DNA of 64,000 bases, from contig SCQH01000082.1 in NCBI GenBank assembly GCA_004321925.1, positions 1 to 64,000 of the forward strand. Direction: 5' to 3'. The stretch is from Nitrospirota bacterium. Lineage in GTDB: Bacteria > Nitrospirota > Thermodesulfovibrionia > Thermodesulfovibrionales > UBA6898. How positions within the stretch are numbered: position 1 is the stretch's first letter; every line of letters starts with the position of its first letter. The translations under genes were made by a program, and so were the position numbers. Below are positions 58,680-63,237 of the stretch, in pieces. The notes under the pieces are model-generated. The model was not told the origin of the DNA, ran no database searches, and was given only the letters and a program-made list of their open reading frames with translations.

Positions 58680-60095
58680 ATGGAGCGACGAGATTTTCTG
58701 AAGTACAGCGCGGGCAGTTTGGCGGCCCTTGTTGTGGGGAGCGAGATGCCCTGGCTTATGGAAAGCAATGCCTATGCTGCATTCCAGACGCCGACTCTCA
58801 ACTTCACCATTACCGATGCGATGAAGGAGATGGTGACCCATAACCCGTTCAACGACGCGCGATGTTACTTCTGGATCTATAAGAGCAACACACCCAACCT
58901 GCTGCCCGAATGCCCGGGGCCGACGATCTTTACGACAGAGGGTGACATTGTCACGATCACCCTGACCAATAACCTGGATGAGCCGCATTCCCTGTATATC
59001 CCCGGTATTTTCAGCAGCGGACCTATTGCCCCGCTTGCCACGAAGACCTTCAGGTTCAGGGCCCTCAGGGCAGGTACCTATCTCTATTACGATAACCTTA
59101 ATGCACCGGTGAACCGGGTGATGGGACTGCATGGTTGCATGATCGTCATGCCGAGGGCCACACATCCGGGGCATAAATTCACCCCGTACGCTGCGCCGTC
59201 TCCGGCAGTCCAGAAACTGTTCGATGACTTCGGCACTTCTGCACACTTTCCCGGTCTCTCCTGGGAACAGGGTGACCCGGCAACCGATACACCGGCCTTC
59301 CGCCAGTATGTCTGGCTATGTCATCAGGCAAGCCCCATCCTTTTTGCCGAGGTGGGCAACTTCACAGCAGGACTGGACTATCCGGCAGCCCAGTTCGCCA
59401 ACTTGTTCAACAACGATCCGTATGTTGATACATTCAATACAGGGATCATGAACCGTAAGCCACATTTTTTCACGATCAGCGGCCAGTCAGGCCACTTTGC
59501 GCATAATAACCCGTTCCTCTGTCCGAACAACCGTGTCGGGGAACCGGTCATCATCCGGGTCCTGAACGCCGGGCTCCAGGCTCATTCGATGCATATCCAT
59601 GCCAATCATGTCTTTACGACGTCGATAAACGGCGTTGTCCAGGAAAACCCGCTCTGGGTGGATACCATGACCCTGTATCCCCTGGATGTTTGGGACTGGA
59701 CCGTGCCGTATATCAGGCCGCCGGATATCCCGAATATCAGGGGGATCGGCAAGGCGGACACCCCGCTTACCTCGATTACCAACCCGGGCATCCCCGGCTC
59801 CGTACCTCACCCGGTCTGGCCGCCGACAGAGGAATTAAATACATTCCTGCCTCCTGTCGGGACACTTTCGGGTGGTTTGACAGGCATCGACATATCGTGC
59901 CAGCTGTCGCCGATGTGTTACCCGATGCATGACCATTCCGAGCATTCCCAGGGTGCACAGGGCGGCAATTACAACTGCGGTCTGATCTCGGGGATCAACT
60001 TTACCGGAGACCGCAACACGGCCGGAGGGGTTACGACCTTTCCGAATGTGCCGACCGTCCATGGACCTGACGGCACAGGGCCGGCAGCGGGCTAG
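58680..60095 (+). CDS. Tat-exported multicopper oxidase-like protein, C-terminal copper motifs only
   Basis: A 471-residue precursor with a Tat signal (MERRDFLKYSAGSLAALVVG). Cupredoxin-like domains follow. In the N-terminal domain the usual HxH motifs are missing: PHSLYIPG stands near residue 103 and GTYLYYDNLNAP near 140. The C-terminal domain keeps HSMHIHANH (302-310) and CYPMHDHSEHSQGAQGGNY (413 onward), motifs I recall from OmpB/MofA-type large oxidases. The usual type-1 Cys between the two His of HCH is replaced by Asp (HDH), though C413 is close. GGGAGG precedes the ATG. The next gene supplies the complementary N-terminal motifs. Confidence 0.85.
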   Translation: MERRDFLKYSAGSLAALVVGSEMPWLMESNAYAAFQTPTLNFTITDAMKEMVTHNPFNDARCYFWIYKSNTPNLLPECPGPTIFTTEGDIVTITLTNNLDEPHSLYIPGIFSSGPIAPLATKTFRFRALRAGTYLYYDNLNAPVNRVMGLHGCMIVMPRATHPGHKFTPYAAPSPAVQKLFDDFGTSAHFPGLSWEQGDPATDTPAFRQYVWLCHQASPILFAEVGNFTAGLDYPAAQFANLFNNDPYVDTFNTGIMNRKPHFFTISGQSGHFAHNNPFLCPNNRVGEPVIIRVLNAGLQAHSMHIHANHVFTTSINGVVQENPLWVDTMTLYPLDVWDWTVPYIRPPDIPNIRGIGKADTPLTSITNPGIPGSVPHPVWPPTEELNTFLPPVGTLSGGLTGIDISCQLSPMCYPMHDHSEHSQGAQGGNYNCGLISGINFTGDRNTAGGVTTFPNVPTVHGPDGTGPAAG

Positions 60096-60162
60096 GGCAC
60101 GAGGCATTTATTATGATGAACATAGAGCAACTCCTCACTGCTAAGGAGAAAGGAGATATAAC

Positions 60163-61512
60163 ATGTCAGTAGCATCCCCAGCACATATAATACCCCGCAG
60201 GTCAGTGGTTGGTGAGGAGGGCGAGTGGTGCAAGATGTTCGATCCGCCCACGGCCAGCCCTGCCACCTGCGAACTGGTTGCCCCGACCAACCCGGTTCCG
60301 GCCTTTGTCGCGGCAACCGTTCCCGGTGCAACGAATACCATCCCCTTTACTATCAGACGCGGCCTCATGAAGACGACCAGGATCGATATGTGGGACGGCA
60401 ACAGGGTGGACTTCTTTACATTCGATGACCCCGACATCGCCTCGACGAACGGGGGAGTATGGCCCGCCCCGACAATCCGGATGGTGCGCGGCTCAATCTT
60501 TCATTGCCAGGTCGCTGCAGGAGGGCCTCCTCCCCATACCATCCACTGGCACGGACAGGAACCGACGCCCATGAATGATGGTGTGGGCCACTGTTCCATG
60601 GAGATAGGCTCATACACCTATCAATTACAGCCTAACTTTATCGGCAGTTATTTCTACCACTGCCACAGGAACACGATGCAGCATTTTGAGTTCGGCCTCT
60701 ACGGCTTTACCATAGTTGAGCCCCCTGACGCGTATGCCCAGCAGAATCCGGCATTGCCCAATTATGCCGGCGGTTATCCGCGCCGCACAGCGGCCAATCT
60801 CATCAACTTCCCGCAGTTCCCGGGCTATGTGCCGGGCGACCCTGTCCATGGAGTGGCAGGTCCTGGCGGCCTGAACGGACTGCCCGGACAGCCCGCGCTT
60901 GACCCTCATGCCTATACGGTCCCTTATGATGTTGAGGCCCTCTGGGTGCTCGACGACCGCGATTCGGTCTGGGCTGCGAATATGAAAAACGCCAGGGCCA
61001 CGTTCCCGGCACACGGTCTGGTGCAGCCCGGGGTCGACGACCAGTTCTTCAAGGGCGATTTCCATGACTTTAACCCGGATTACTTTTTCGTGACCGGGGT
61101 TCCCTTTCCTGGCCCTGTCGGGAGCACGGTCCCCTGTGCATCGAACGTGGTTGTTCCGGCGGAACTCAACAGCGGCGTGGTCGGGATGCAGGTCCCGGTG
61201 AACGCCCTGAGGAACCAGACCATTCTGATCAGGGTCCTCTGTGCAGCGTATGTCTTTATCAGGGTCACGTTCCCGGTCGACGTCGTTGTCATTGCCTATG
61301 ACGGCAGGGCGCTTGGGGTGCCTCCTTTTAATCAGTACAACCATGCCTTCCTGGTGCCTGCCGGGACGCCGATGGACCTCAGTACTGCCCGGCGCTTTGA
61401 TGTGCTGATGAGGTCTTCCTCGACGGTCAGTTCTTTTGCGAGTGTGCAGTTCAGACATAACAGGAACAATGCGCTCCTGTTCACTGGCCAGATCCCTATA
61501 AATATTGCTTAA
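60163..61512 (+). CDS. Multicopper oxidase-like protein, N-terminal copper motifs only
   Basis: A 449-residue protein without a signal peptide (MSVASPAHIIPRRSVVGEEG). Residues 75-190 are a cupredoxin domain with HTIHWHG (125-131) and YHCHRNTMQHFEFGLYG (165-181), which give HxH, HCH and a type-1 style Cys-His set. The C-terminal domain keeps the fold pattern (RNQTILIRVLCAAYVFIRVT) but no His-rich copper motifs. AAGGAG precedes the ATG. It follows the first oxidase by 67 bp. Lacking its own signal, it may be exported with the Tat-dependent partner, or its true start may differ. Confidence 0.85.
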   Translation: MSVASPAHIIPRRSVVGEEGEWCKMFDPPTASPATCELVAPTNPVPAFVAATVPGATNTIPFTIRRGLMKTTRIDMWDGNRVDFFTFDDPDIASTNGGVWPAPTIRMVRGSIFHCQVAAGGPPPHTIHWHGQEPTPMNDGVGHCSMEIGSYTYQLQPNFIGSYFYHCHRNTMQHFEFGLYGFTIVEPPDAYAQQNPALPNYAGGYPRRTAANLINFPQFPGYVPGDPVHGVAGPGGLNGLPGQPALDPHAYTVPYDVEALWVLDDRDSVWAANMKNARATFPAHGLVQPGVDDQFFKGDFHDFNPDYFFVTGVPFPGPVGSTVPCASNVVVPAELNSGVVGMQVPVNALRNQTILIRVLCAAYVFIRVTFPVDVVVIAYDGRALGVPPFNQYNHAFLVPAGTPMDLSTARRFDVLMRSSSTVSSFASVQFRHNRNNALLFTGQIPINIA

Positions 61513-61527: not shown

Positions 61528-63237
61528 ATGAAAAATAGAATGATGCTCTTTAAAATAATACCGGCAATTGCGATAGTGCTTTGTCTGACTGCCGGTCAGT
61601 CATGGGCGGCTGCCAGCTATCTCTACTCCGATGAATGGGGCACCCCCGGCGCGGCCAACAGCCAGTTCAGTCTCCCTTCCGGTGCTGCCGTTGATGCGGG
61701 AGGGAACATTTATGTAGCGGATGAAGGCAACAACCGGATCCAGAAGTTCGGACCGGCCGGTACCTTTACCACAAGCTACTCACCAGGGCTCGGCAGCGCC
61801 AACGGCCAGTTCAATGGTCCCCGGGGTATTGCTGTTGATGCGGCCGGAAATGTTTATGTCACTGATTTTCATAATAACCGCGTTCAGAAGTTCAACAATA
61901 ATTTTCAGTTTCAGCTTGCCTTCGGGTCGGCAGGGCAGGCCGCCGGTCAGTTCACCGGCCCGTCCGGTATTGCCCTGGATTCTCTGGGGAACATCTATGT
62001 AACGGACTCCATCAATGACCGGGTCCAGAAGTTCGACAGCTCCGGCGCGTTCTTAATACAATGGGGGAGCAACGGCCCGGCTGACGGCCAGTTCTTTGAG
62101 CCGCAGGGCATTGCCGTCGATGTCTTCGGCAGTGTCTATGTGGTCGATACCTTTAACGACAGGATACAGAAGTTCGACAGCAATGGCGTGTTCCTCGGCA
62201 AGTGGGGGATACAGGGCAGCGCCAATGCAGAGTTCTTTGCCCCGGTCGGTCTCGCACTGGATGCGGCCGGTAATCTGTATGTGACCGATGCAGGGAATCT
62301 CAGGGTCCAGAAATTTACGGGTGGCGGGACCTTTTTCACCACCTGGGGCGCATTCGGACAGCTTGCGGGTGAGTTCATAGCACCGTCAGGGATCGCGGTC
62401 AGCTCAACCGGCTCTGTATATGCGGCTGATACCCTTGACACCAATGTGCAGATATTTGGTCCGTCAGTCCCCTTTGTTGCCGCTCCCAAGGCCGGGGTTT
62501 ATATCGACGGCCTCTGGTATCTGGATAAGAACGGCAATGGGGCATGGGACGGAAGCCCTGCAGACCTTTTATTCAGCTTTGGAGGAGGCATTGTCGGAGC
62601 GATTCCGGTGACCGGTGACTGGGACGCAAGCGGGAGAACTGAGGTCGGGATATATGATAACGGCTCCTGGTATCTGGACAATAACGGAAACGGCATCTGG
62701 GAAGGCGCCCCAACAGACATTTTTTATAGCTTTGGAGGAGGCCTGACCGGAGCGGTCCCGGTAACCGGAGACTGGGACGGAGATGGGAAGACAGAGATCG
62801 GGATATATGCGGACGGCCTCTGGTATCTCGACAGGAACGGCAACGGTCAATGGGAAGGCTCAGGGGCAGACCTGTTTTACAGTTTTGGAGGAGGCCTGAC
62901 CGGAGCGGTCCCGGTGGTTGGAGACTGGAACGGAGACGGGACAGACGAGATAGGGCTCTATCTTGACGGGACGTGGTATCTCGATGTGAACGGGAATGGC
63001 GCGTGGGATGGCGAGCCGGTTGACCGGATAGAAAGTTTCGGCGGCGGCCTCACCGGCGCTGTGCCGGTTGCAGGCGGCTGGAGCCAGGACGGTGTTACTG
63101 AGATAGGTGTTTATTTTGGCGGTTCCTGGTATCTGGATTTCAGTGCCAGCGGCGCATGGGACGGCACGACCTTCGATCAATTCTACATCTATGGAGTGGG
63201 TCTGACAGGTGCGGTCCCGGTAACGGGCAACTGGTAA
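61528..63237 (+). CDS. Secreted NHL-repeat protein with five C-terminal 51-residue repeats
   Basis: A 569-residue precursor with signal peptide (cleavage near QSWAAA). Residues 30-310 hold six NHL repeats of about 47 residues (NIYVADEGNNRIQKF pattern), which form a six-bladed propeller. From about 315 to the end are five 51-residue repeats (EIGIYxDGxWYLDxNGNGxW, then FGGGLTGAVPVxGDW), the same type and number as in the protease at 23139. AAGGAGG lies before the ATG, only 15 bp after the oxidase gene, so all three are one operon. A surface scaffold for the oxidases is a reasonable inference. Confidence 0.88.
   Translation: MKNRMMLFKIIPAIAIVLCLTAGQSWAAASYLYSDEWGTPGAANSQFSLPSGAAVDAGGNIYVADEGNNRIQKFGPAGTFTTSYSPGLGSANGQFNGPRGIAVDAAGNVYVTDFHNNRVQKFNNNFQFQLAFGSAGQAAGQFTGPSGIALDSLGNIYVTDSINDRVQKFDSSGAFLIQWGSNGPADGQFFEPQGIAVDVFGSVYVVDTFNDRIQKFDSNGVFLGKWGIQGSANAEFFAPVGLALDAAGNLYVTDAGNLRVQKFTGGGTFFTTWGAFGQLAGEFIAPSGIAVSSTGSVYAADTLDTNVQIFGPSVPFVAAPKAGVYIDGLWYLDKNGNGAWDGSPADLLFSFGGGIVGAIPVTGDWDASGRTEVGIYDNGSWYLDNNGNGIWEGAPTDIFYSFGGGLTGAVPVTGDWDGDGKTEIGIYADGLWYLDRNGNGQWEGSGADLFYSFGGGLTGAVPVVGDWNGDGTDEIGLYLDGTWYLDVNGNGAWDGEPVDRIESFGGGLTGAVPVAGGWSQDGVTEIGVYFGGSWYLDFSASGAWDGTTFDQFYIYGVGLTGAVPVTGNW

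Follow-up and report, generated by a model that had tools for sequence, protein, structure and literature searches.

Two adjacent genes in the 64,000-nucleotide stretch of DNA analysed here (the window) encode two proteins, A and B, that together probably make up one multicopper oxidase: they are paralogues with complementary losses of copper sites, and B would be exported along with A. We put the probability of this reading at about 0.82. A centre shared by the two proteins is strongly suggested by their sequences and moderately by predicted docking. A/B is probably a real, conserved heteromeric two-domain multicopper oxidase, and probably an undescribed one.

The features of the pair and of its neighbours are listed in Table 1. 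A preliminary description of the window had reported both open reading frames, a Tat signal on A with none on B, and four histidine motifs divided between the two proteins, and the sequence bears out each of these points. Domain 1 of A is free of HxH motifs and its C-terminal half carries HSMHIHANH and YPMHDHSEHSQ; B carries HTIHWHG and YHCHRNTMQHFEFGLYG in its N-terminal half and no histidine motif in its C-terminal half. HxH motifs were found at A H305, A H417, B H128 and B H166 and nowhere else in A or B. Both proteins match Pfam Cu-oxidase_3, with 54.8 bits for A and 45.5 bits for B against a cut-off of 21. The reading frame of A starts with MERRDFLK, which includes the Tat motif RRDFLK. 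Because the stop-to-stop frame of B spans only 455 aa and nothing in its N-terminus, MSVASPAHIIPRRSVVGEEGEW, resembles a signal, a longer start of B that bears a signal is impossible.

Table 1. Features of the A/B pair and the downstream genes in the window.
Feature	Position	Strand	Remark
Protein A (471 aa), two-domain cupredoxin	58680..60095	+	would give the non-T1 half of the trinuclear centre
A, Tat signal peptide (RRDFLK)	58680..58781	+	R3, R4 and K8 invariant in 13 relatives
A, domain 1, copper-less	58785..59195	+	HSLYIP for HxxHxH, YDN for HCH; from the A1-to-B1 profile alignment
A, domain 2 motif HSMHIHANH (H302-H310)	59583..59609	+	H305, H307 and H310 invariant
A, domain 2 motif YPMHDHSEHSQ	59919..59951	+	H417 and H419 invariant; Asp where the T1 Cys would be
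Protein B (449 aa), two-domain cupredoxin, no signal peptide	60163..61512	+	predicted T1 site and other half of the trinuclear centre
B, domain 1 motif HTIHWHG	60535..60555	+	H125 predicted T1 ligand; H128 and H130 predicted trinuclear ligands
B, domain 1 motif YHCHRNTMQHFEFGLYG	60655..60705	+	H166, C167, H168 and H174; axial position is Leu179
B, domain 2, facing HSMHIH of A	61249..61275	+	VFIRVTFP, no His, copper-less
Secreted NHL beta-propeller with FG-GAP-like repeats	61528..63237	+	15 bp past B
YtkA + SCO1/SenC protein, 329 aa	63442..64000	+	cut by the window end; the gene runs on to contig base 64431

The division of ligands was compared across 41 aligned A/B pairs, obtained from profile searches with A and B and from fetched loci. 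Residues H305, H307, H310, H417 and H419 of A and H125, H128, H130, H166, C167, H168 and H174 of B are identical in all 41. These include the eight predicted histidines of the trinuclear centre, four from A and four from B, which are invariant in the 41 adjacent pairs, and this invariance implies that the split of the motifs is not due to chance. Every pair has two HxH motifs in A and two in B, rather than all four in one chain as in type C two-domain oxidases. An A with the ligand set of B, or a B with that of A, does not occur in any of the 41 pairs; nor does a homologue with the full motif set, which would have spoken against the preliminary description. Two plasmid pairs in the alphaproteobacterium Indioceanicola show the same division. 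The claim that two proteins hold complementary halves of one trinuclear centre is therefore sustained, with the halves invariant and encoded side by side. Since the division is the same in every complete pair examined, the enzyme is most likely active only in the form of a mixed A/B complex.

The positions that lack copper ligands also follow a pattern. At the copper positions of A domain 1, the histidines are mostly replaced by A, F or Y and by P, and H-C-H by Y-D-N/P; in domain 2 of B, IRVTFP-like residues stand in place of HSMHIH. At the position of the T1 cysteine, A domain 2 mostly has D or S, with Cys in 5 of the 41 pairs, and no T1 histidine follows it. The T1 ligands thus lie in domain 1 (H125, C167 and H174 of B) and not in domain 2, as is the case in type C oxidases. 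The axial T1 position of B is occupied by Leu in 31 pairs and by Met in 10. In a laccase, the L499M mutant had a potential 140 mV lower (PMC4220974), and by analogy the Leu of B suggests a high-potential T1 site.

Judged by their sequences, A and B are paralogues over both domains. Their alignment extends across 236 columns (hhalign probability 99.2, E 1.3e-19) and pairs Y106/P108 of A with H128/H130 of B, YDN of A with HCH of B, and IRVTFP of B with HSMHIH of A. In a tree that included single-chain two-domain oxidases, A forms one clade and B another, with supports of 94 and 80, respectively. The inner branching of the two clades is parallel, and the pairwise distances of A and B have a correlation of 0.94, a value reached by none of 2000 permutations; from this we conclude that the split is old and that A and B have been inherited together. 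The nearest solved structures for both proteins are the type C two-domain laccases 2zwn (mgLAC) and 3g5w (Nitrosomonas blue copper oxidase). In 2zwn, the profile of A matches both domains, and the Foldseek TMt against 2zwn is 0.70. Like these oxidases, A and B have two cupredoxin domains per chain, and by sequence the ligand layout is that of the type C group: domain 1 has the T1 copper and the spacing HCH-x5-H, domain 2 contains HDH, and a trinuclear centre, predicted in the case of A/B, lies between two chains. However, the known type C members are homotrimers with every motif in each chain, whereas A and B have each lost the half that the other keeps. In two-domain oxidases the trinuclear site is shared by two protomers (PMC13151041), which explains how the halves can be parted.

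We propose that the ancestor was a type C two-domain oxidase in which the T1 site lay in domain 1, while domain 1 of one subunit and domain 2 of its neighbour formed the trinuclear centre. After duplication, the domain 1 copper site would have disappeared from copy A and the domain 2 site from copy B; as these losses are complementary, an active site would form only in a mixed A/B assembly. Domain 1 of B would hold the T1 copper by H125, C167 and H174, with Leu179 as the non-coordinating residue, and would provide H128, H130, H166 and H168 to the trinuclear centre, to which domain 2 of A would add H305, H307, H417 and H419. Electrons may enter at the T1 site of B, from where the HCH motif would conduct them to O2 at the boundary between A and B. 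The substrate may be a metal ion or a c-type cytochrome as redox partner; the copper-bound centre, the export and the stoichiometry of A/B are likewise proposed here from indirect evidence. In a ring of three two-domain subunits, one place is left over, and neither A nor B put there would yield a second active site.

If this is true, A/B would be, to our knowledge, the first case of a multicopper oxidase in which two different gene products form the trinuclear centre. No described heteromeric multicopper oxidase was found in the text of the open-access literature. PDB entry 9cck, which has two chain types, was considered as a possible precedent; its listing describes an oxidase of Nitrosopumilus to which a C-terminal cupredoxin domain has been added, and no paper on this entry was found. 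In two-domain oxidases the centre lies between subunits, so that after duplication, complementary losses can tie two copies together as a single enzyme; A/B, if true, would be a clean natural case of this. It also bears on the evolution of six-domain oxidases with one remaining centre.

The structure of the complex was predicted with AF2 on the Citrifermentans pair L017, a relative about 55-60% identical to the window pair, in which A and B lie in one frame and are parted by the TAA stop of A. This stop was read as Ser as a modelling device, and no read-through is claimed. The input consisted of the joined pair, 9 other joined rows and 54 separate rows. The joined A/B model has a pTM of 0.90 and a mean pLDDT of 86.7; for two spatially unrelated proteins the pTM should lie near 0.5. 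The linker is disordered (pLDDT about 31). When A domain 2 and B domain 1 were modelled alone, the pTM was 0.76, even though A2 accounts for just about 55% of the chain, and 65 residues had a pLDDT below 50. The prediction, of moderate confidence, is that these two domains touch. In Foldseek, both models span A and B onto consecutive domains of factor V, MnxG and ceruloplasmin, with TMq of 0.36-0.42, compared to 0.26 for a single two-domain chain and 0.20 for a single domain; the overall deviations are large, about 8-26 A, and the matches support the arrangement and not the detail. Such a match is as expected if B domain 1 comes after A domain 2 round the cupredoxin ring. The heterodimer prediction called for in the preliminary description thus has A docking on B in this relative, and the idea of an active centre at the subunit interface gains support from the complementary conserved ligands together with this predicted docking.

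For export, an RRxF-type motif is present in A in 37 of the 39 Tat-type pairs, the remaining two being cut at contig ends, and no signal was found in B in any of the 39. The B of several relatives (Geobacteraceae) carries CarboxypepD_reg domains, a type seen on secreted proteins. A Tat signal on one partner only is also the arrangement of the hitchhiker complexes HybOC and PaoABC (PMC4273604), although these are a hydrogenase and an aldehyde oxidoreductase, unlike A/B. By this analogy, the simplest reading is that B leaves by hitchhiking on the Tat signal of A. B would most likely fold with A in the cytoplasm and be carried out with it, and copper loading would take place outside, with the SCO1-like protein as candidate chaperone.

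From Table 1, B is followed by the NHL propeller and the YtkA + SCO1/SenC gene; next comes, in the same direction, a MofC-like protein combining cytochrome c and Peripla_BP_6, with one haem motif. Clusters of ompB/mofA likewise contain SCO1/SenC and a MofC-like cytochrome with a periplasmic binding protein (PMC5566968). A MauG/CCP-type dihaem cytochrome is encoded nearby in at least 9 relatives. RND efflux genes (AcrB family, CusA-like by eye) lie near A/B pairs at L104, L108, L109, L018, L021 and L120, hinting at a copper-related role. The gene context favours metal or electron-transfer chemistry, and in Nitrospirota and Geobacteraceae the operon would tie the enzyme to the redox reactions of metals or to extracellular electron transfer.

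Accessory copper genes nearby would also be found if A and B had no centre in common, that is, if B, as a homo-oligomer, were a T1-copper electron carrier and A a protein of its own that binds copper or acts as a chaperone, with only the operon shared. Each chain by itself indeed lacks a full trinuclear set, and A lacks a T1 site. But two independent proteins would hardly keep exactly eight trinuclear histidines, four apiece, in all 41 pairs, with the losses complementary at homologous positions and A2 predicted to dock on B1, and we consider this explanation unlikely.

The preliminary description had taken the pair for a two-gene version of a large OmpB/MofA-type oxidase, so that A and B would be the halves of a six-domain OmpB/MofA/MnxG-type enzyme. 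The operon partners agree with this, as does the alignment of the A/B models to six-domain proteins, and a trinuclear centre between neighbouring domain pairs, predicted for A/B, is common to both. However, OmpB/MofA/MnxG are single chains of more than 1200 aa with the T1 copper in the domain ahead of the centre (T1 in domain 2, centre between domains 2 and 3; PMC3600357), whereas A and B, at 471 and 449 aa, have two domains each and four cupredoxin domains in total. Large OmpB/MofA-like oxidases are encoded at L111:1-4832, L055:1-3762 and L011:7864-12945, the last in the genome of the window. In these proteins the T1 half comes first (HLHQH/HCHFYPHFAQGMW) and HIH/HDH after it, the reverse of A then B, which places the T1 copper in the other half. 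The profiles of A and B have no match to the OmpB-like proteins in hmmsearch at E 10, and BLAST gives E 0.009 or worse. At L111 and L055 the OmpB-like gene adjoins an intact A/B pair, so the two coexist, and the paralogy of A and B to each other over both domains also speaks against a split chain. Of the proposed likeness, the operon part (SCO1 and the MofC-like cytochrome) holds, but the ligand layout and the profiles do not follow it, and the nearest solved structures are the type C 2zwn and 3g5w. We find a split OmpB/MofA oxidase very improbable. A nitrite-reductase-like enzyme built from two proteins, with a T2 site instead of a trinuclear centre, is scarcely credible: copper nitrite reductases are among the PDB matches of A domain 1 and have the trimer fold in common, but they have three histidines at the interface against eight invariant ones in four HxH motifs here, and the best matches of A and B are two-domain laccases.

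The gene order also speaks for a mixed A/B oxidase. A scan of species genomes with B gave ten loci, in all of which an A-like gene lies immediately upstream of B; they come from Nitrospirota, Geomonas, Citrifermentans, Desulfuromonadales, Syntrophobacteraceae and other delta-type MAGs. B adjoins A at every locus that has a full-length A and sufficient contig, and in all Tat-type loci A comes first. A has B after it on the same strand apart from a few explained exceptions: contig ends at L060 and L083, and L082, where the solitary A is a 301-aa remnant without domain 2 and without B. At L105 a shortened B resumes past a frame break. The genome of the window has three pairs: the window pair, L010, which is Tat-type and shorter, and L009, which is Sec-type and reversed and is the only locus among the 41 with B before A. 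Single-gene fusions of A and B, a further check put forward in the preliminary description, did not turn up in any locus from the genome samples scanned. In G252, a frame of 941 aa that covers B was rejected as a fusion; A and B occupy separate ORFs there, each in its own reading frame, and the long frame runs open across A by chance. In genome G402 (L102-L106), five A genes are each partnered by a B, one of which has a frame break. The plasmid-borne pair L140:3679-5918 of Indioceanicola profundi is annotated in RefSeq as a 'hypothetical protein' (A, WP_162937815.1) and a 'multicopper oxidase domain-containing protein' (B). Our reading suggests that such proteins now annotated 'hypothetical' are essential oxidase subunits.

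A second, Sec-exported family was found in the phylum of the window, with thirteen B-A loci in which the ligand division is the same as in the Tat-type pairs. In 12 of the 13 a third gene, C, follows (L009:11482-15814, L122-L127, L129, L130, L132, L133 and L135). Across its two domains C shows homology to A (E 2e-54), but it has no HxH at the copper positions. At L135 all three genes lie in frame. B, A and C would be three two-domain subunits, with C completing a six-domain ring that has one centre; in the operon of the window, no gene for a third subunit was found. We lean towards a widespread, obligately heteromeric class, with Tat A+B and Sec B+A+C forms, that arose by duplication and complementary loss of copper sites. 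If true, it is a possible stepping stone from homotrimeric two-domain to single-chain six-domain oxidases. Sideroxydans lithotrophicus ES-1 has three tandem multicopper oxidase genes beside mofC-like and SCO1 genes, and a shared active site was not analysed in that report (PMC5566968); our guess is that the three are Sec-type B, A and copper-free C. The C subunit often has C-terminal FG-GAP-like or Ig-type repeats. Those on the L009 C subunit resemble the C-terminal repeats of the NHL propeller in the window (WYLDxNGNGxWDG...PVTGDWxGDGxTxIGIY), and may represent a shared surface module.
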